Source: Acidobacteriota bacterium (GTDB lineage: Bacteria > Acidobacteriota > Terriglobia > Terriglobales > Acidobacteriaceae). From it: DNA of 55,933 nt. This document shows positions 29,462-36,600 of the stretch, piece after piece; position 1 is the stretch's first letter, and every line of letters starts with the position of its first letter. Both the position numbers and the translations under genes were made by a program. Location of the stretch: the NCBI GenBank assembly GCA_021793405.1, contig JAJYSV010000021.1, forward strand, positions 1-55,933, written 5' to 3'. Below the pieces are notes generated by a model that searched no databases, was not told where the DNA came from, and was given only the letters and a program-made list of their open reading frames with translations.

Positions 29462-30439
29462 CTATACGCGTGTGCCGACCGGCTTCCGTGATTCCTGCTG
29501 GTGCTGCTCGCGATACCAGTCCACGGTGCGACGCAGACCTTCCAGAAAGTCCACTTTTGGGGCATATCCTAGCGTTTCTCGAGCGGCGGAAATGTCCGCA
29601 TAGGAATGTTTGATGTCGCCTTCGCGCGATGGTCCATACAGCGGGGGATTCTTGTAGCCGGTCAACTCCGCCATCAGCTTATATGTCTGGTTCAGCGTGT
29701 ATGGCTTGCCACAGGCGCAGTTGAACATGCGACCTGCCACTTTTTCCGCCGGAGCAGCCGCAGCCTTCAAATTCGCCTGCACGACATTCTCAATATAGGT
29801 GAAGTCGCGGCTCTGCTCGCCGTCCCCGTGGATTGTGGGTTGCTCTCCGGCCAACATCATTTTGGCAAACTTTGCCATCACGCCGCTGTAGGGCGAATCC
29901 GGCGCCTGCCGCGGACCAAAGATATTGAAGTATCGGAGGGCGACTGTCTCCAGTCCGTACACTTCCCAATAGCTGCGCAAATAGAGTTCCCCCGCGAATT
30001 TCTGCACTGCGTACGGGGACAGGGGGCCGGGGAGCATGGACTCTACCTGGGGCAGGGGATTGCGATTTCCATAGGCGGAAGAGGACGCGGCATAGACCAC
30101 GCGTCTAACCCCGGCGTGGCGCGCGCCTTCCAGCAGATTGAATGTTCCGTCGATGTTGGCCGTGTGGCTGGTGCGGGGGTCTTTCACGGAAAGAGGAACT
30201 GAGGGCAGGGCGGCTTCATGGAAAATGATTTCCACGCCTTCGCACGCCCTGGCAGTCGCGTTGGCATCGCGCAGATCTACTTCCAATAGCTCAATTTTCT
30301 GCCGCCATGGGGCCAGATTTTCTCTCTTGCCGGTGGAAAAATTATCAAGAGCGCGGACTGTCTCGCCTCGCTCCACCAGCGCCTGTGTCAACCAGGAGCC
30401 AATAAATCCGGCAGCTCCTGTAACCAAATAGGTGGCCAT
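29462..30439 (-). CDS. NAD-dependent UDP-sugar 4-epimerase (extended SDR)
   Basis: The 325-residue protein has the extended-SDR motif TGAAGFIG (residues 7-14) for NAD and the catalytic YxxxK in SPYAVQKFAG, preceded by SSSAYG. The sequence resembles the WbpP/UDP-N-acetylglucosamine 4-epimerase branch more than classical GalE, which is inference from motif flavour (RYFNIFGPRQ; PYSGVMAKF). Such enzymes supply nucleotide sugars for surface polysaccharide. AAGGAGAAG lies just before the ATG. No other glycan genes are adjacent. Confidence 0.88.
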   Translation of the reverse strand: MATYLVTGAAGFIGSWLTQALVERGETVRALDNFSTGKRENLAPWRQKIELLEVDLRDANATARACEGVEIIFHEAALPSVPLSVKDPRTSHTANIDGTFNLLEGARHAGVRRVVYAASSSAYGNRNPLPQVESMLPGPLSPYAVQKFAGELYLRSYWEVYGLETVALRYFNIFGPRQAPDSPYSGVMAKFAKMMLAGEQPTIHGDGEQSRDFTYIENVVQANLKAAAAPAEKVAGRMFNCACGKPYTLNQTYKLMAELTGYKNPPLYGPSREGDIKHSYADISAARETLGYAPKVDFLEGLRRTVDWYREQHQQESRKPVGTRV

Positions 30440-30588
30440 ACTTCTCCTTCGCGTAGGGGGATGCGTTGGGTTTCGAGGCCTGTTTTTCTACGCAGGCTTT
30501 CATCATAACAACGAGAACGCTGGAATTTGTCCTAAGCGAGGCTCTTATTCCTCGATAGTTCGTTACGGTTCAGATACCATAGTGATTG

Positions 30589-30613
30589 GCAGGCGGCTGG
30601 GCGATCGCTGCCG
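30589..30613 (+). repeat. Exact 25-nt copy of the rnpB 5' end
   Basis: These 25 bases are identical to 31518-31542, the first 25 nt of RNase P RNA including the 5' strand of helix P1. Sequence diverges immediately on both sides. The copies are direct repeats 929 bp apart and bracket the membrane-protein gene at 30725-31486. This copy cannot encode RNase P RNA because none of the catalytic core follows. Confidence 0.85.
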
Positions 30614-30724
30614 CGATTTCTCTTCCCCCATAAAAACAGGGCTCCGCTCGTGTATCGATGGTATTCTGGCCTCCCCTTTGAAAGCAGGATCCTTTTTTTC
30701 ATTCTGATCGATTGGAGTACGGCT

Positions 30725-31486
30725 ATGGCAACCGAGCAGGTTCGCCTCGCGGAAGCTCCGAAGCAACGCGGCGTCACGAAACACTCTGGAGTTTCGCGTT
30801 TTCTGAACCAGTATTTCTACTTCTGCATGTCGCTGCTCGTTGCAGTAGTAGTCATCTATGGCTTCGGCCATACGGTGGACAACCGCCTTGTCCACGCAAC
30901 GCCGCCGCGACCGTGGATTCTGTGGGTTCATGGTGCGGTTTTTTCTGGATGGGTGGTTTTCTTTATCTTCCAGTCGGCGCTGGTGCGAACCCATCATGTG
31001 AAGCTGCATCGGTTGACGGGTTGGTTCGGCGCGGCGCTCGGCGTATTGATCCCAGTCCTGGGGATTGCGACCTCCATCGTCATGTTTCGTTTTAGGATCG
31101 CTCACTTCCATGAAGCTGGCATTAAACCGTTCTTCGGTCTCTCGGTATTGGACATGACTTCGTTCGCGCTTCCGTTCTTGCTGGCGATCTATTGGCGCAA
31201 GAAGCCGGAGTTCCACCGCCGCCTGGTGCTGATCGCGACCTGTGCGCTTACGGGTGCGGCCTTCGTGCGCTTCCCGATGATGCCGATGCCGCACAAATGG
31301 GCCTATGCAGGCGTCGATGCGCTGATTTTGTTGGGGATCGCGCGCGACTTGATTGTCAACCGGCGAATGCATATTGTTTACCGTTACGCACTCCCGATAT
31401 TGGTAGCGTGCCAGATCTTTGCTGTGCAGCTTGCGTTCCATCCCCCTGCATGGTGGGTCAAACTCACGAATGCGATCATCGGGTGA
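30725..31486 (+). CDS. Multi-pass membrane protein, 253 aa
   Basis: The ATG at 30725 has GGAG 8 nt upstream. About six membrane segments are visible (YFYFCMSLLVAVVVIYGFGH; WVHGAVFSGWVVFFIFQSAL; WFGAALGVLIPVLGIATSIV; MTSFALPFLLAIYW; ALILLGIARDLIV; ALPILVACQIFAVQLAF). Conserved-looking histidines (GFGH, WVHG, KLHRLTGW, HIVYRY) recall haem-binding or DUF2306-like membrane proteins. No redox partner is adjacent, so function is unknown. It lies between two copies of the rnpB 5' end. Confidence 0.65.
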   Translation: MATEQVRLAEAPKQRGVTKHSGVSRFLNQYFYFCMSLLVAVVVIYGFGHTVDNRLVHATPPRPWILWVHGAVFSGWVVFFIFQSALVRTHHVKLHRLTGWFGAALGVLIPVLGIATSIVMFRFRIAHFHEAGIKPFFGLSVLDMTSFALPFLLAIYWRKKPEFHRRLVLIATCALTGAAFVRFPMMPMPHKWAYAGVDALILLGIARDLIVNRRMHIVYRYALPILVACQIFAVQLAFHPPAWWVKLTNAIIG

Positions 31487-31517
31487 GGCGTCGCGCCGCA
31501 CGCGTATCATTGGGATA

Positions 31518-31913
31518 GCAGGCGGCTGGGCGATCGCTGCCGGGGAGCTGAAAATGCTCATCGGGAGAGGAAAGTCCGAACTCCGCAGGGCAGTGTGCCG
31601 GATAACGTCCGGGACCGGAGCGTCAAGGCTTCGGGACGGCAAGTGCCACAGAGAATATACCGCCGCGCCCGCAAGGATGCGGTAAGGGTGAAAAGGTGCG
31701 GTAAGAGCGCACCGCTCCGGCTGTAAAGTCGGAGGCATGGTAAACCCCACACGGAGCAAGACCAAATAGGCGGGAAGCTTGGCGGCGCAAGCTGCCAAGC
31801 GCGTGCTGGCCCGGCGCGCCAAACCCGCGGGTAGGTCGCTACGAGCGTCCGCAGTAATGCGGCGCCTAGAGGAATGATCGTCCTCGACAAAATTCGGCTT
31901 ACAGGCCGCCTGC
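31518..31913 (+). ncRNA. rnpB: RNase P RNA, class A
   Basis: This is the RNA subunit of RNase P, the ribozyme that trims the 5' leader of tRNA precursors. The diagnostic core elements occur in order: GAGAGGAAAGTCC near 31564, a central CCACAGAGAATATACC segment near 31645, AAGGGTGAAAAGGTGCGGTAAG near 31685, AGAGGAATGATCG near 31867 and the CR V-like end near 31888. The first bases GCAGGCGGC and the last bases GCCGCCTGC pair as helix P1, fixing the ends at 31518 and 31913. TATCAT at 31505-31510 is a possible -10. Its 5' 25 nt and 3' 21 nt are each duplicated elsewhere nearby. The gene itself appears intact. Confidence 0.95.
31893..31913 (+). repeat. Left attachment-like repeat: rnpB 3' end (21 nt)
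   Basis: The last 21 nt of rnpB match 34503-34523 exactly, in the same orientation. Duplication of a structural RNA's 3' end is the classical trace left by a site-specific integrase, which restores the RNA gene on integration. The region between the copies, about 2.6 kb, has island-like content. Confidence 0.8.
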
Positions 31914-31950
31914 CTTTATTATCAACAACTTAAGTGCTCAGAATAGGCCA

Positions 31951-31968
31951 TTGTGACGGTAATGTGAC
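31951..31968 (+). repeat. Arm-type repeat candidate, left
   Basis: TTGTGAC-N6-GTGAC lies 38 bp inside the left end of the island. The same arrangement recurs at 34391-34408 near the right end, in the same orientation. Direct repeats near both ends of an island resemble arm-binding sites of tyrosine integrases. The match is only 12 defined bases. Confidence 0.4.
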
Positions 31969-32093
31969 ATTTTCTCGATCTTTAAGGAAACAAAGGCAAA
32001 AACCGGCTGTTGGCTGTCTGAAGGGTATCAGCCTTCGATTGGTGCGTCGACTAAATCAATGGATTTCGCAAATTCATAGAGTGGGACATCTCT

Positions 32094-32414
32094 TTGACGC
32101 AGTTTAACAATCAGCGAGCACTAGGGTCGCCTACGCAGGCCAACCTGCATCACATGAAGGGTATGGCACGAGAGTCCACTGAGATCGCAAGAATTGAACA
32201 GCGAATCCGAGATCTGGCGTCTTGGCTTAAAGAAAACGGTCCCGAAGGCGGACTAGAACAAAAACATCTCCAGGAGGGAAGCCCGGAGCGCGTCTATTGG
32301 CACCTAGGATATATGGTCGCCCTGCGAGATACCCTATCTTTGCTTAGAGGCCAAGATTCAACTACTCGAAGAGACGGCACGACGGACAGTTCCAGTATGT
32401 ATTCTGCATTCTAG
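32094..32414 (+). CDS. Small hypothetical island protein, up to 106 aa
   Basis: The TTG at 32094 has GGGA 7 nt upstream; ATG codons at 32154 and 32163 are alternatives that would give 86 or 83 residues. The core (STEIARIEQRIRDLASWLKE; ERVYWHLGYMVALRDTLSLL) is helical and looks like a real small protein, possibly coiled-coil, but I do not recognise a family. Its 3' end overlaps the frameshifted gene on the opposite strand by about 50 nt. Confidence 0.5.
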   Translation: MTQFNNQRALGSPTQANLHHMKGMARESTEIARIEQRIRDLASWLKENGPEGGLEQKHLQEGSPERVYWHLGYMVALRDTLSLLRGQDSTTRRDGTTDSSSMYSAF

Positions 32415-32693
32415 CGGGATGCACCTTGTTATCCGGTGGATTGAAAGTGTGGTAGAGACTGCATCCCTTTTCAAACGCAGCTTTAGCACTCGGAAGGTAT
32501 CCGTACTTAAATTCCTTGTATTTTCCGACCCAATCGCCTAAACGACCGCCGACATCACCGTCTGAGCGACCGGCGTAGGAGATATAGAAGGTGATTCTCC
32601 TAACACATAAACTCCAGGGGAAATGTTACCGACGTTGCGCCAAATTCCATCCGAAGTTAGAGGGAACGGTCCATTTAATCCGCTTGAGGCCAT
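32362..32693 (-). pseudogene. Frameshifted small gene within the island
   Basis: From an ATG at 32693 the minus strand reads MASSGLNGPFPLTSDG...SPGVYVLGE. The sense then continues in another frame as ITFYISYAGRSDGDVGGRLG, WVGKYKEFKYGYLPSAKAAF, KGCSLYHTFNPPDNKVHPAR, ending CPSCRLFE. The two halves fit together as one roughly 110-residue protein that recalls small proteins of unknown function in soil bacteria. The switch lies near 32585-32605. Either the gene is broken by a small indel or the region contains a sequence error. A zinc-binding-like CPSC is near the end. Confidence 0.6.
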
Positions 32694-32795
32694 AATTTTA
32701 CATCAACTTTCTGGGCATACTCCGCCCGGTTAATTGTTCAGACGATGGGCCGAAGAATTCAGAATGCATTCAAGCGGCCATCAGCTTCTAAAGGG

Positions 32796-33242
32796 CTATT
32801 CAACCTCCACCGAGCCGAACCCCTCTGGTAGTTGTTCCGCAATTCCAGCGGGAATGTTGGCCTCCATCCCAATCAAGCCAAATATATTCGGGCCGGGTCG
32901 AGTGAAAATTACTCTCTTACGCACATATGAGCCCAACGAGCCAACTAGAGAGACTCTTGCAGACTTGGTATTTTCCGAACCTATAGCCGCGAGGAGATCC
33001 TCAATATACATCGGCTTACCATTCCTATGGATCGCGTCTCTGGCCTTTGATAAGAGTGTCCCGGGCCGTAAAACGGCTTTGCTATCTCCGTCAATATTCG
33101 GCGAAATCTCTCGGGGAAGAGCCTTTATAGAGTCTTGGATCGCTTGAAGATAGACACGGGCCATCTCAATTTGTCTCTCTAAATCGTCGATCTCCTGAGA
33201 CTTCTTGTCGGCTAACCGTTGTAAAGACTCTCGTGCTCCCAT
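32796..33242 (-). CDS. Coiled-coil plus HARE-HTH-like protein, 148 aa
   Basis: An N-terminal coiled coil (residues about 5-45, LADKKSQEIDDLERQIEMAR) is followed by a winged-helix-like domain. That domain (KARDAIHRNGKPMYIEDLLA, then AIGSENTKSARVSLVGSLGS, VRKRVIFTRPGPNIFGLIG) resembles HARE-HTH/ASXH domains linked to DNA or chromatin-type targeting. ATG 33242 or GTG 33245 could start it; GAGAGG lies upstream. It is divergent from dinD and may regulate island genes (inference). Confidence 0.6.
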   Translation of the reverse strand: MGARESLQRLADKKSQEIDDLERQIEMARVYLQAIQDSIKALPREISPNIDGDSKAVLRPGTLLSKARDAIHRNGKPMYIEDLLAAIGSENTKSARVSLVGSLGSYVRKRVIFTRPGPNIFGLIGMEANIPAGIAEQLPEGFGSVEVE

Positions 33243-33359
33243 CACAGAAATACCTCTCTAGAGAAGGTAAATGGAAAAAAGAGAAAATGCAATAATAAAT
33301 GTGGCCAAAGCTGTAAGGCATGATTTATCCTTATCTCGTCAGCCTATTGGAGCGTAAAG

Positions 33360-34190
33360 ATGACCCAGCTTACCAACGTTGTTATTGAGCGTTTAAAGGC
33401 GATTAAACGCACAACTGATAAAGGGATTTCGCTCTGGTGGGGTCGCGAAATCATGGACGTGCTTGACTATAAGGAATGGAGAGACTTTCGTGAAGTGATC
33501 GACAGGGCAAAGACTTCCTGTGAAATGGCCGGAAATTTTTCGGCTGACCATTTTGTGCCCATGCCCGAAATGGTATCGATCGGAAGTGGGGCGCAGAGAG
33601 AAAGAGAAAACTTTGTCCTCAGCCACTATGCCTGTTATCTCATCGCGATGAATGGTGATCCTGGCAAACCGGAGATCGCCAGCGCACAGAGTTACTTCAC
33701 GGAGCAGACCTACCGCCAAGAACAACAGGATTCGCTTTCAGAATCGGAGCGGAGGCTGGTCATCCGCAATCGAGTGAAGGATGCGAACCGAAAACTAAGT
33801 GGTGCTGCTAAGGTATCGGGGGTGCGAGGTAAAATGTTCGGCGTCTTTCACGACGCTGGGTACAAGGGCCTGTATGGAGGCCTGGGCGTAGAGGCCGTCA
33901 AGGCTCTCAAGAAAATTGATCCCAAGGAGAATCTTCTCGACTGCATGGGGAGAGCGGAACTAGCCGCAAATGAGTTCAGAATCACACAAACCGAGCAGAC
34001 CCTGACCAACAAAGGAATTAAGGGCGAGCAACTGGCTATTGATACACACATGGCAATCGGCAAAAAGGTACGCACGACGATGAGAGATTTGGGCAATCCT
34101 CTTCCGGAGGATCTAGTCGCTGAACCCTCAATAAAAAGGCTTGCGACGTCGAAAGCACGAGAGACAAAACGACTAAAAGCGGATCAATGA
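33360..34190 (+). CDS. dinD: DNA damage-inducible protein D (DinD) homolog
   Basis: The 276-residue protein matches DinD: an N-terminal BRO-N-like domain (ISLWWGREIMDVLDYKEWRD; AKTSCEMAGN; DHFVPMPEMV), the sequence NFVLSHYACYLIAMNGDPGKPEIA, then a second domain near 135-250 (VKDANRKLSGAAKVSGVRGK; FHDAGYKGLYGG). In E. coli DinD is SOS-induced and inhibits RecA filament activity. It is often carried on mobile elements. GGAG precedes the ATG by 7 nt. No recognisable LexA box lies upstream. A perfect TCTCTAGAGA palindrome sits between it and the divergent gene and might be an operator. Confidence 0.88.
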   Translation: MTQLTNVVIERLKAIKRTTDKGISLWWGREIMDVLDYKEWRDFREVIDRAKTSCEMAGNFSADHFVPMPEMVSIGSGAQRERENFVLSHYACYLIAMNGDPGKPEIASAQSYFTEQTYRQEQQDSLSESERRLVIRNRVKDANRKLSGAAKVSGVRGKMFGVFHDAGYKGLYGGLGVEAVKALKKIDPKENLLDCMGRAELAANEFRITQTEQTLTNKGIKGEQLAIDTHMAIGKKVRTTMRDLGNPLPEDLVAEPSIKRLATSKARETKRLKADQ

Positions 34191-34502
34191 AAGTTGCCGA
34201 AAACCAATCCGGCGAGTGGTCCTGATTGCTGTTTGATTGGATCGACTCCAAGAAGCTCAAGGCTCTAATCGCTCGGTTCAACAATGGAATTCGGCGAACC
34301 CGATTGACCTAATCTCAATATTGAAGCCAATTGAGCTTGGCAATCCTGTGGCGCTTGATGTTCATGTCTGAAAAATAGACAAAATTGACTTGTGACTATT
34401 ACGTGACGAAATCGCATCCGTATTCATTCGGTTGCGCTGCTTTAACGGTATATGCTCGGTCCATCGTATTTAGAATCAATATGTTGTAAACTCTGCAGTA
34501 AG
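34191..34502. other. Gene-poor right end of the island
   Basis: No gene is supported in these 312 nt. The stretch is AT-rich and carries the right arm-type repeat candidate (34391-34408). It leads into the right copy of the rnpB 3' end. Confidence 0.4.
34391..34408 (+). repeat. Arm-type repeat candidate, right
   Basis: TTGTGAC-N6-GTGAC, the same pattern and orientation as 31951-31968. It lies 95 bp inside the right end of the island. Confidence 0.4.
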
Positions 34503-34523
34503 TTCGGCTTACAGGCCGCCTGC
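34503..34523 (+). repeat. Right attachment-like repeat: copy of the rnpB 3' end (21 nt)
   Basis: Exact copy of 31893-31913 in the same orientation. It lies only 7 nt from the stop codon of the convergent flavoprotein gene, and no other rnpB sequence precedes it, so it is a fragment and not a second gene. Confidence 0.8.
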
Positions 34524-34530
34524 TGAAGTC

Positions 34531-35943
34531 TTACTGTTCGAAATGCCCGAAGATCACGTTCAGCGATTCCGACAGGGTCGGATGCGAGAAAATTCCTTCC
34601 TGCAACACTGGATAAGGTAGCTTCCCCATCATCGCGAGCTGCACCATCGCCGCGATCTCGCCGCCCTCCATCCCTAAAATAGCCGCACCCAGAATTTGCT
34701 CGGATTTTGCATCGACGATGACCTTCATCAACCCGCGCATCTCGCCAAATTCTCTCGCGCGCGCTACATAAGTCATCGGCATCTTCGCCACGCGTATCGT
34801 CCTTTTTTGTTCGCGAGCCTCTTTTTCTGTCAGCCCGATGCGTCCCAGTTGGGGATCGATAAAGATGGTGTAGGGAACCATCCGCCCTACGATGGTGACA
34901 TCTTTGTTCTCCAGAAGATTGGCGCGCAGAACCCGAAAATCGTCATACGAGATGTGGGTAAACGCCGGGCCGCCTTTCACGTCTCCAATTCCGTAAACGC
35001 CCGCGACATTTGTTTCCAACCGAGCGTTCACTCGGACAAATCCCTTATCGTCGGTCGCAATTCCAGCCGCCGGAAGATCCAAATCCTCTGTATTCGGCGT
35101 GCGTCCCACAGCGACGAGAAGATGGGTCCCTTCCAGCTTCCTCTGCTCGGTCCCTTGGCGAAACTCCAGCGTGATTTTGTTCGCGTCGCCGCCTACCCGC
35201 TGCGTCTTGGCGTCGAGTAGGACTTCGATCCCATCCTCCCGCAAAATTTTCGTGATCTCTTCAACAATGTCGGCATCTTCGTGCGTCAATAACTGCGCGT
35301 CCGATTGCACAATCGTTACCCGGCTGCCAAACCGACGAAACATCTGCCCGAATTCCAGGCCGATATATCCACCGCCCAGTACCAGTAAATGCTCCGGAAC
35401 TTGATCCAGTTCCATGATCGATGCATTATCCAGAACATTCATCAGCGAACGAACTTCGCCGAAACCGTCGATTGGAGGGATAGCCGCACGCGCTCCCGTG
35501 TCGATAAAAATCTTGTCTGCGGTCAGAGAGAGAGTCTCGCCGTCGTTTTTCCTGACGAAAATGGATTTCGCTCTCGTGAATCGCGCGTCCCCATAAATCA
35601 AATCGAGGTTTTCGGTTTTCAGCAGAGCCCTTTCGTTATTGCTGCGCGACTGCAGCACAATATCGTTCTTGCGTTGGCGAACCCGCTCCATCTCCACGCC
35701 GCTCACCCTCGCGAGGACGCCGAACTCTTCGGCTCGGCCACTCAGGTAGGCGAGGCGAGCGCTGGCCACCATCGTTTTCGTCGGAGTGCAACCCGTATTC
35801 ACGCAGGTGCCACCCACATATTTGCGCTCGATCAGGGCGGTGCGCCATCCTGCATTGGCCAGCGCTTTCGACAGGGGCGTACCCCCCTGCCCGGAACCTA
35901 GAATGATGGCATCGTAATGTTCGGCTGAGGTTTCTGAAGACAT
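34531..35943 (-). CDS. Class I pyridine nucleotide-disulfide oxidoreductase (mercuric reductase-like)
   Basis: The 470-residue flavoprotein has an FAD motif ILGSGQGG (14-21) and a redox-active disulfide in GGTCVNTGCTPTK (Cys47/Cys52). It also has an NAD motif LVLGGGYIGLEFG near 185, a second FAD motif YGIGDVKGGPAF near 310 and the dimerisation end SHPTLSE with His and Glu. The family passes electrons from NAD(P)H through FAD to a disulfide or metal. The C-terminal Cys pair of true mercuric reductase is missing, so the substrate is unknown. No E1/E2 genes are adjacent. GAGG lies close to the ATG. Confidence 0.88.
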   Translation of the reverse strand: MSSETSAEHYDAIILGSGQGGTPLSKALANAGWRTALIERKYVGGTCVNTGCTPTKTMVASARLAYLSGRAEEFGVLARVSGVEMERVRQRKNDIVLQSRSNNERALLKTENLDLIYGDARFTRAKSIFVRKNDGETLSLTADKIFIDTGARAAIPPIDGFGEVRSLMNVLDNASIMELDQVPEHLLVLGGGYIGLEFGQMFRRFGSRVTIVQSDAQLLTHEDADIVEEITKILREDGIEVLLDAKTQRVGGDANKITLEFRQGTEQRKLEGTHLLVAVGRTPNTEDLDLPAAGIATDDKGFVRVNARLETNVAGVYGIGDVKGGPAFTHISYDDFRVLRANLLENKDVTIVGRMVPYTIFIDPQLGRIGLTEKEAREQKRTIRVAKMPMTYVARAREFGEMRGLMKVIVDAKSEQILGAAILGMEGGEIAAMVQLAMMGKLPYPVLQEGIFSHPTLSESLNVIFGHFEQ

Positions 35944-35985: not shown

Positions 35986-36483
35986 TTAATACGAAAGAAA
36001 GACAGCGCGCGAAATTACCAGGATGCTGCCGCCGATCGCGACTGCATCCTCGATCAGAGCAACCGGAAAGTCGTGCCAGTGGAATGTATGCACCCATCCC
36101 TTCCGCACCTCATATCCCAGCAGCGCACCGAGGATCGCGCCCGCCAGGCCGATCGCCGCGCAGGTCTCCCAGTTTGCACCCCAGGCTTGCCCACTCACCA
36201 TGCCGCAGATAAATCCAAAGATTACGCGGCCGATCATTCCAGGGGGCTTTAACCGGCTTGGCGTATTGGGCATCTTGTCGGCGATCAATTCGCCCACGGC
36301 CAGCAGGGTCAGGACCACGACCGCAGCTGTCGTGTGTAGAAAATGAAGCGAACTGCCAGGAATGTGCATGTAGCGGAGATGCAATGTCCAGGCAAGAACT
36401 GCGATGGGGGTAAACGTTCGCAGCCCGGTCAACGCGCCCAGGCAAAACGCGACTAGAAGCACCGGCAAAATGCTGTCAGACAT
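35986..36483 (-). CDS. DUF4126 membrane protein, 165 aa
   Basis: The ATG at 36483 has GGAGGTGTGT directly upstream. The protein has four to five membrane segments (LLVAFCLGALTGLRTFTPIA; AAVVVLTLLAVGELIAD; AAIGLAGAILGALLGYEV; ALIEDAVAIGGSILVI). TGLRTFTP and the ELIADK-like motif are hallmarks of DUF4126, a family of unknown function. Upstream lies a 27-bp tandem repeat that could bind a regulator. Confidence 0.82.
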   Translation of the reverse strand: MSDSILPVLLVAFCLGALTGLRTFTPIAVLAWTLHLRYMHIPGSSLHFLHTTAAVVVLTLLAVGELIADKMPNTPSRLKPPGMIGRVIFGFICGMVSGQAWGANWETCAAIGLAGAILGALLGYEVRKGWVHTFHWHDFPVALIEDAVAIGGSILVISRAVFLSY

Positions 36484-36546
36484 ACACACCTCCACGCGAG
36501 TTCGATGGCGCGCAGCCGCAGAATGATTGCTGGGCCGCCATCTTTA

Positions 36547-36600
36547 TTCCGTTCGAACTGAATTGTAACGGGATTCCGCCCGAACTGAATTGCAGCGGGG
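36547..36600. repeat. Imperfect 27-bp tandem repeat
   Basis: Two adjacent 27-nt units (36547-36573, 36574-36600) share CGAACTGAATTG and differ at about 5 positions. They lie 64-117 bp upstream of the DUF4126 gene. The unit contains AACTGAATTG and, in the first copy, a TTCGAA palindrome. A regulatory binding array or simple duplication is possible. Confidence 0.6.

Follow-up and report, generated by a model that had tools for sequence, protein, structure and literature searches.

Genes for tRNA and tmRNA are the textbook landing sites of genomic islands, and integron cassettes are units of one or two genes that occur in variable order at a single site, with toxin-antitoxin pairs among their cargo. 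In Islander-type tRNA and tmRNA islands, which carry a tyrosine integrase, the insert restores the end of the RNA gene and a displaced fragment marks the far end of the island (portion of PMC4383910). Islands are also described at the 5′ ends of genes, including SpyCI in mutL, where the promoter is involved, and the dusA islands (portions of PMC3430984 and PMC4482086), and homology-facilitated illegitimate recombination yields one homologous and one illegitimate junction (portion of PMC3240628). The RNase P RNA gene, rnpB, is not mentioned as an island target in the available portions of PMC2516327, PMC3541175, PMC2705793, PMC2864759, and PMC8776855, and no report of it in this role was found in the open-access literature among the matches listed.

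The window analyzed here is a stretch of 55,933 nucleotides from a member of the Acidobacteriaceae (other genomes and loci in the comparison carry G and L codes), and it contains no tRNA gene. Since copies of the rnpB ends lie both upstream and downstream of the gene, rnpB bears an insert on either side, in the following arrangement:

29462 to 30439, minus strand: NAD-dependent epimerase, native left flank (Pfam; gene order in relatives)
30570 to 30588, plus strand: old rnpB upstream region, TTCAGATACCAT element, common to G007 and the empty site of G008
30589 to 30613, plus strand: displaced outer copy of the 25-nt rnpB 5′ end, preceded by the old upstream region
30614 to 31517, no strand: cassette A, the 5′ insert, with a single gene and the present rnpB upstream region
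30725 to 31486, plus strand: orf278, 253 aa from a conserved ATG, membrane-protein-like by eye
31501 to 31517, plus strand: CGTATCAT, the present rnpB upstream region, which came with cassette A
31518 to 31917, plus strand: rnpB, class A RNase P RNA, intact (Rfam RF00010, 279.7 bits, full length)
31518 to 31542, plus strand: inner copy of the 25-nt rnpB 5′ end
31893 to 31913, plus strand: inner copy of the 21-nt rnpB 3′ end (3′ strand of helix P1)
31914 to 34502, no strand: 3′ insert, 2,589 bp, lower GC (DNA search of 300 family genomes; GC)
32094 to 32414, plus strand: orf106, no family (no match in Pfam, PADLOC, NCBIfam, or PHROG)
32796 to 33245, minus strand: orf149, winged-helix-like C-terminal part by eye, divergent partner of dinD
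33360 to 34190, plus strand: dinD, PADLOC candidate defence gene PDC-S13 (NCBIfam, Pfam, PADLOC)
34503 to 34523, plus strand: displaced outer copy of the 21-nt rnpB 3′ end
34531 to 35943, minus strand: FAD oxidoreductase (flavoprotein), probably the native right flank (order in G009)
35986 to 36495, minus strand: DUF4126 protein, directly after rnpB in four relatives (Pfam; gene order)

The exact repeat of the last 21 nt of rnpB (TTCGGCTTACAGGCCGCCTGC; 31893–31913 and 34503–34523, spaced 2,610 bp apart), first pointed out in a first-pass annotation of this DNA, was reproduced and can be extended to 24 nt with one mismatch. With up to 3 mismatches allowed, the 4.6 Mb genome contains no further copy, and 100 shuffles gave 0 matches. 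The first-pass annotation was right about the 3′ insert and missed its mirror image at the 5′ end, where the first 25 nt of rnpB have an exact second copy 929 bp upstream (0 matches expected from shuffles), enclosing one membrane-protein-like gene. The anatomy is directly observed and is that of tRNA and tmRNA islands, i.e., DNA inserted at an RNA gene's end, the gene restored, and the displaced fragment on the far side. We consider it very improbable that this arrangement reflects a chance repeat or an assembly artefact: the assembly of the window genome comprises 137 contigs, a repeat of 21–25 nt could misjoin contigs, and G003, G007, G008, G363, and G001 are apparently metagenome-assembled genomes, but no shuffle matches are expected, the same kind of structure is seen in assemblies of 1 to 10 contigs (G406, G045, G053, G380, and G089), and the two 5′ cassettes described below are common to separate assemblies.

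Profile scans, base composition, and DNA searches all agreed with the proposal of a small insert, free of any recognized recombinase, directly outside the rnpB 3′ end. Its GC content is 0.45–0.53, compared to 0.53–0.61 in the surroundings; its DNA was not found in the 9 other genomes of the same genus, and among 300 genomes of the family 5 others matched, in dinD/orf149 pieces and one 46-nt stretch. No integrase was detected in the open reading frames starting at 31934, 32094, 32796, and 33360 (Pfam; the last three also against NCBIfam and PHROGs), and none of the structural or packaging matches typical of PICI-like phage satellites was found in the insert (Pfam, NCBIfam, PHROGs). As for the accessory genes named in the first-pass annotation, dinD was confirmed by profile (NCBIfam DinD, PRK11525, 299.6 bits, above the curated cut-off of 242; Pfam Bro-N; PADLOC PDC-S13, E = 7.8e-95), with weak PHROG matches also to HNH endonuclease and anti-repressors. 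The winged-helix-like gene, orf149 (149 aa), has no significant family of its own in profile scans, and its assignment comes from inspection by eye and from weak HARE-HTH matches in 2 of 6 homologues (best E = 0.027). Of 24 other dinD loci examined, 7 have a divergent orf149 homologue next to dinD. Elsewhere (twice in G019, once in G414) the dinD-orf149 module has no tRNA nearby and no flanking 18-nt repeat (exact 18-mers occurring twice, among the matches listed), and thus offers no hint of its mode of mobility.

Empty sites were observed in relatives. G003 and G008, of the same genus, appear empty on both sides, with the gene order epimerase-rnpB-DUF4126-glyA: the 5′ site has the same flanks as in the window, and the 3′ side has a single rnpB 3′ end and a right flank without the flavoprotein. 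The empty site predicted beforehand, rnpB followed after 7 nt by the flavoprotein stop, was not seen, and four relatives instead run from rnpB to DUF4126 without the flavoprotein. The order flavoprotein-DUF4126-glyA also occurs in G009 (91, 96, and 95% amino acid identity), and the FAD oxidoreductase is probably the native right flank on these sequence grounds; in G009, the one close relative with the flavoprotein, homology extends through codon 423 and stops there, 145 nt short of the contig end.

The 5′ side is occupied by interchangeable units. Cassette A comprises the membrane-protein-like gene (orf278; no family in Pfam, PADLOC, or NCBIfam, and no integrase match), and cassette B comprises AraC and DUF3224 genes. 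Cassette A adjoins rnpB in G007 and G002, where its upstream element reads CGTACGAT and CGTATCAT, respectively, and is not beside rnpB in G003, G008, or G001; a sigma-70 scan reported neither the old (30570–30588) nor the present (31501–31517) upstream region of the window. The order is remnant-A-remnant-B-rnpB in G007 and B-remnant-A-rnpB in G002, i.e., units of one or two genes in variable order at one site, as in integrons. Between G007 and G002, cassette B has 90% identity across 1,507 aligned nt, and 55/64 of its fourfold sites are identical, compared to 69/147 for the flanking epimerase. For cassette A, fourfold-site identity was 97/120 (window-G007), 85/113 (window-G002), and 79/110 (G007-G002), compared to 75/149, 67/157, and 69/147 for the epimerase (Fisher p of 7e-5 or less for A and B), an excess that is smaller against glyA (window-G002, 85/113 for A vs. 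128/205, p = 0.025). Their likeness at fourfold sites exceeds that of the flanking core genes, so A and B have probably been exchanged between species. The outer junction of A is near-constant (rnpB nt 20–25) in three genomes (window, G007, and G002) and two contexts.

Similar structures recur in related genera. Our survey covered 123 rnpB loci (246 ends), a non-random set in which the first loci were chosen for matches or kinship and G380 entered after its second rnpB-like piece had been noticed; contig ends shorten some flanks, and the rnpB 5′ end is off at L076, L077, and L088 and approximate in several others. Same-strand end copies at E < 1e-6 were found at 11 of the 246 ends, compared to 13 of 901 control windows (p = 0.009), and all 11 lay on the expected side (5′ copies upstream, 3′ copies downstream; p = 0.001), with G045/G053 and G089/G380 not independent because of cassettes in common. 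A wider, corrected 5′ window returned six loci (window, G007, G002, G363, G045, and G053), all with upstream copies and none new. Frequency alone was rejected as proof, since at E < 1e-3 random windows were repeated as often as rnpB ends (31/659 vs. 14/246, p = 0.61); the weight rests only on the strict count and the side of the copies. Weak copies in G238 (20 nt), G126 (30 nt, 83%), and G047 (15 nt) belong to the loose count only, the 22-nt 5′ copy in G002 (E = 0.002, or 5e-4 in the wider window) falls outside both counts, and two matches were set aside, one in G352 (27 nt, inverted) and one in L048 (20 nt, minus strand). Remnants measure 20, 25, 29, 44, and about 105 nt at the 5′ end and 21, 26, 29, 55, 62, and about 130 nt at the 3′ end; several of the latter start near the same point, a CGGCTTA element (window, G406, G088, and a 23-nt unit of Escherichia coli), which may mark a fixed site. 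In G380 and G089, inspection by eye found that each of the two copies has a hairpin sequence of its own after it. Separately, 16-mer matches outside rnpB in the order numbered 9 in 8 genomes, compared to 3 in a reversed-pattern control; L063–L068 were without rnpB by Rfam, and L069, L070, and L073 without an nhmmer match.

rnpB is not alone among RNA genes in having its ends copied, as indicated by arrays at E. coli rnpB, the subject of old reports, and at SRP RNA genes. Downstream of rnpB in E. coli K-12, a 113-bp unit is repeated 3.5 times in an array without any annotated gene, and the last 23 nt of rnpB have three further copies, two exact and one with a mismatch. These are likewise downstream copies of the 3′ end that start at the CGGCTTA element, but they form a short, gene-free tandem, whereas in the window the two copies, at a spacing of 2,610 bp, enclose genes, and the 5′ end of rnpB takes part as well. 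Among SRP RNA genes here (51 loci found in 50 genomes, 40 tested), 4 of 40 had a 3′-end copy, at +86 to +104, and none had genes between; cassette-like cases thus numbered 7/40 for rnpB and 0/40 for SRP RNA, a contrast biased because the 40 genomes were picked to include the 7 with rnpB remnants. End copies lacking an island, close to an outcome named in the first-pass annotation as evidence against an insertion, are found at E. coli rnpB and SRP RNA genes, and not at the window's site. Such arrays favor a scenario in which slippage first duplicated the rnpB end and unrelated genes were inserted between the copies later. We regard this as improbable: it requires two events per locus, it does not readily explain the opposite orders of A and B, each with its own upstream region, and short-range copies are rare at rnpB here, with a 3′-end copy at 1 of 123 loci (L105; 21 nt, 90%, +71) and a single 5′ match of 11 nt.

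We favor, with a probability of about 0.48, two insertions by homologous recombination, in which incoming DNA bearing part of rnpB recombined with the resident gene and no recombinase gene would be needed. Each unit would consist of one or a few genes and a fresh rnpB terminus, i.e., either a new 5′ end together with a new upstream region or, on the opposite side, a new 3′ end. Insertion would rebuild a working rnpB and shove the old terminus outward, where it would persist as a remnant, 20 to about 130 nt long, with an outer junction that is short or illegitimate; the repeated ends could then allow cassettes to stack. The site may have been favored because rnpB is an essential, constantly expressed gene. 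The variable remnant lengths suit recombination better than one fixed att core; conversely, the near-constant outer junction of A counts against it, as it would also be expected from a site-specific recombinase, and neither a donor molecule nor a circular form was seen. The window's rnpB is 99.2% identical to that of G003 over nt 70–200 and 82.9% over nt 1–70, and may be mosaic; as this signal comes from a fast-evolving hairpin in few genomes, the chimeric gene was demoted from proof of homologous recombination to suggestive.

A tyrosine integrase, acting in trans or since lost, could instead use the rnpB ends as att sites, the cassettes being non-autonomous satellites. Mobilization by another element's integrase, as raised in the first-pass annotation, is possible, and no direct evidence of it was found; we hold this explanation to be doubtful. 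The restored target and outside fragment resemble integrase islands, the outer junction of A fits it, and integrase-type matches are plentiful (5 to 56 per genome), but none occurs among the cassette genes classified or, among the matches listed, near rnpB in 12 genomes, and the remnants vary in length. The search of relatives proposed at the outset yielded strong end copies and, among the matches listed, no recombinase beside them. In viral contigs, 18 nt of the 3′ end matched one stretch and 19 nt of the 5′ end two, none with rnpB by Rfam in the part examined (for L135, 1.2 of 116 kb); a phage origin was rejected, the match in L134 lying within a reading frame of 769 aa on a phage-like contig and being taken as chance. 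Ordinary recombination is the most likely motor of insertion. Somewhat speculatively, the rnpB ends may be a natural cassette site of the family, at which non-autonomous units enter on either side, build up stacks, reorder, and cross species without a dedicated integrase, the rnpB terminus that each unit carries serving both for attachment and as a new promoter or 3′ end.

If true, a single-copy RNA gene gaining new flanks at both ends would be a simple way of acquiring genes that is readily overlooked, and rnpB end copies a marker for finding small integrase-less inserts; the possible mosaicism calls for caution in using rnpB as a phylogenetic marker. Compared to Islander-type islands, the anatomy is the same, but here the target is rnpB, both ends are used, the units span about 0.8–4 kb, and no integrase is seen. 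SpyCI and the dusA islands likewise insert at 5′ ends, but are phage-like or encode an integrase, whereas the rnpB units are one or two ordinary genes. Homology-facilitated illegitimate recombination would yield the window's anatomy without a recombinase, although reuse of a single site needs an added reason. Integron cassettes are similar in their units, variable order, and toxin-antitoxin cargo, the rnpB cassettes carrying defence-type genes (DinD/PDC-S13 and a HigBA-like pair) among ordinary ones, but the rnpB units are bounded by an rnpB end instead.

The RNase P RNA gene (rnpB, class A) of the window is flanked by two inserts, each lying between two copies of one end of the gene. The first-pass annotation had described an island at the rnpB 3′ end, carrying dinD and other genes and closed by a repeat of the last 21 nt 2,610 bp downstream. 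That island is present and its repeat exact, but the account was incomplete, as it overlooked a second insert at the 5′ end, where an exact copy of the gene’s first 25 nt lies 929 bp upstream.

Features of the rnpB locus (window positions)
30589-30613: outer copy of the first 25 nt of rnpB
30725-31486: orf278 (membrane-protein-like by eye), sole gene between the two copies of the rnpB 5′ end
31518-31917: rnpB
32796-34190: divergent orf149-dinD pair
34503-34523: outer copy of the last 21 nt of rnpB

A second rnpB upstream region also lies between the 5′-end copies. After the epimerase come the old upstream region and its 25 nt of rnpB, then orf278, then the new upstream region joined to the intact rnpB; beyond these lie the 3′ insert, the displaced 21-nt end, the flavoprotein gene, DUF4126, and glyA. 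The inserts are mirror images about rnpB, and because the 5′ and 3′ ends pair in helix P1, their repeats are partly complementary. A sigma-70 scan of the window made no call at either upstream region, and the label “promoter” therefore rests on position and conservation. The 21-nt end had no match in shuffled sequence and no third copy in the whole genome (≤3 mismatches). Past the DUF4126 gene, we also observed a 27-nt direct tandem repeat (85%; 36546-36599).

The 3′ insert has a lower GC content than the surrounding DNA and includes orf106, orf149, and dinD. Used as a query, it matched none of the nine other genomes of the genus and, besides the window’s own, five of 300 family genomes, with dinD/orf149 pieces in four and a single 46-nt stretch in the fifth. 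A search for dinD hit 3 of 61 relatives and, in a phylum sample, 21 of 395 genomes (21 other genomes altogether). An orf149 homologue lies divergently beside dinD at 7 of 24 other dinD loci, some of which are too short to tell; six genomes carry this pair (G019, twice, G414, G060, G724, G623, and G550). Together with a match of DinD to the PADLOC candidate defence model PDC-S13, this recurrence points to a probable two-gene, putative defence-type module in the 3′ cassette.

Within the genus (G001-G009), rnpB was found in five other genomes, with no match in G004, G005, G006, and G009. Of the five with rnpB, G003 and G008 have no insert at either end of the gene and read epimerase, rnpB, DUF4126, and glyA. 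The distance from rnpB to DUF4126 is ~120 nt or less in G001, G002, G003, and G008, and G007 has different genes 3′ of rnpB. The examined rnpB stretches of all five relatives contain no second rnpB 3′ end. An empty 3′ site in which rnpB would directly meet the flavoprotein stop, as had been predicted, was not seen: the flavoprotein is not beside rnpB in any of the five, and in G009 its homology ends after codon 423, with 145 nt of unrelated sequence left before the contig end (L285 1-145). Since G009 carries the same flavoprotein-DUF4126-glyA order (91, 96, and 95% amino-acid identity), the flavoprotein is probably the native right flank in the window’s lineage.

The 5′ cassette with orf278 (cassette A) also adjoins rnpB in G007 and G002, where it is combined in reversed order with cassette B, an AraC-like gene plus a DUF3224 gene (90% identity between G007 and G002 over 1,507 aligned nt). 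G007 reads remnant (a displaced rnpB end, 25 nt), A, remnant (29 nt), B, rnpB, and G002 reads B, remnant (20-22 nt), A, rnpB; the AraC part of B seems broken in G007. The rnpB-proximal upstream region travels with the cassette: A is followed by a CGTATCAT-type region in the window and G002 and by CGTACGAT, ahead of the inner remnant, in G007, while B has a TTCAG-type region behind it in both G002 and G007. G363 has a remnant of ~105 nt (81-94 nt as matched by BLAST) upstream of a lipoprotein-like gene; a related gene (66% over 947 nt) adjoins rnpB in G001, with no rnpB remnant detected.

Both cassettes are more alike between genomes than their surroundings. Identity at fourfold-degenerate sites of A was 97/120 (window-G007), 85/113 (window-G002), and 79/110 (G007-G002), compared to 75/149, 67/157, and 69/147 for the epimerase, which lies a few hundred bp from A in the window; for B, it was 55/64 (G007-G002) vs. 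69/147 (Fisher p-values for A and B, 7 × 10−5 to 6 × 10−8). The contrast with glyA was weaker (window-G002, 128/205 vs. 85/113, p-value 0.025; G007 glyA left out). The simplest reading of these raw identities is that A and B probably moved between species after the flanking genes diverged.

We located rnpB in 269 of 282 family genomes and surveyed a non-random set of 123 rnpB loci, the window’s own included, for same-strand copies of the terminal 60-mers. At E < 10−6, copies were detected for five 5′ ends (window, G007, G363, G045, and G053) and six 3′ ends (window, G014, G406, G088, G089, and G380), i.e., 11 of 246 ends vs. 13 of 901 random windows of the same loci (p-value 0.009). Every 5′ copy was upstream and every 3′ copy downstream (p-value 0.001, or 0.004 if nine are independent). 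At E < 10−3 there was no excess (14/246 vs. 31/659, p-value 0.61). A wider 5′ window, as some 5′ ends had been misplaced, yielded six loci, the previous five and G002, all upstream. Repeats of the rnpB 3′ end, which the first-pass annotation proposed seeking in other Acidobacteriota, recur within the family.

Cargo at other rnpB ends
G045 and G053: HigBA-like pair (HTH_37 and Gp49)
G014: 235-aa protein, no Pfam match
G406: DUF6438/ankyrin protein
G088: AraC, DUF4440, cupin, and aldo/keto reductase genes
G089: fn3-domain, lipoprotein-like gene, with a related one in G380

G380 retains ~130 nt from the 3′ part of the old rnpB; inspection by eye shows a separate hairpin sequence after each of the two copies, both there and in G089. 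Two copies of ~44 nt enclose the HigBA-like toxin-antitoxin pair inserted at the 5′ end of rnpB (808 bp upstream, in L167 and L169). Separately, G352 has an inverted 27-nt copy (93%) of the rnpB 3′ end lying ~1.75 kb farther downstream (L080); G221 and G310 have rnpB pieces only, each over two contigs (L142, L147, L143, and L149), from either fragmented assembly or an interrupted rnpB; and a 3′-end 16-mer occurs away from rnpB in eight genomes of the order (nine matches vs. three for the reversed control; L063-L070 and L073).

No integrase was found among the classified cassette genes, in agreement with the earlier observation that the island has no recognisable recombinase. A tyrosine recombinase next to such repeats, for which a search had also been suggested, did not emerge: among the PF00589 matches listed (E up to ~7 × 10−13) from 12 genomes, those closest to an rnpB within the same contig lay at ~30 kb in G088 and 72 kb in G380. 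The structure of the locus, its recurrence, the empty 5′ sites, the reversed cassette order, and the excess likeness of the cassettes are observations, from which the mechanism is inferred. An integrase acting in trans on rnpB ends is a less likely explanation overall, but would better explain why the outer junction of A is nearly constant and why several 3′ remnants share a CGGCTTA start. At slightly under even odds (roughly 0.48), we favor recombination of the resident rnpB with incoming DNA bearing an rnpB end: the inner crossover would fall within rnpB, the outer junction would leave the old end behind, and the resulting repeated ends would permit cassette stacking. Such recombination would explain why no recombinase was found, why remnants differ in length, and how new upstream regions were gained, along with a possible rnpB mosaic (window vs. 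G003, 99.2% over nt 70-200 and 82.9% over nt 1-70).

Copying of RNA gene ends is wider than the rnpB described here. Escherichia coli K-12 carries a 113-bp unit array (3.5 copies) downstream of rnpB, where the last 23 nt of the gene occur three more times, twice exactly and once with a mismatch. Similarly, 4 of 40 family SRP RNA loci exceeded our threshold (G116, G045, G053, and G233), with 3′-end copies 86-104 nt downstream in short, gene-free arrays; G406 and G075 have similar copies by eye, closer in and within the exclusion zone of the test. Short tandem repeats including the SRP RNA 3′ end and resembling the E. coli array follow the SRP RNA gene at L254, L258, L259, and L265. Compared to these systems, rnpB here stands out in having genes between the copies and both ends involved.
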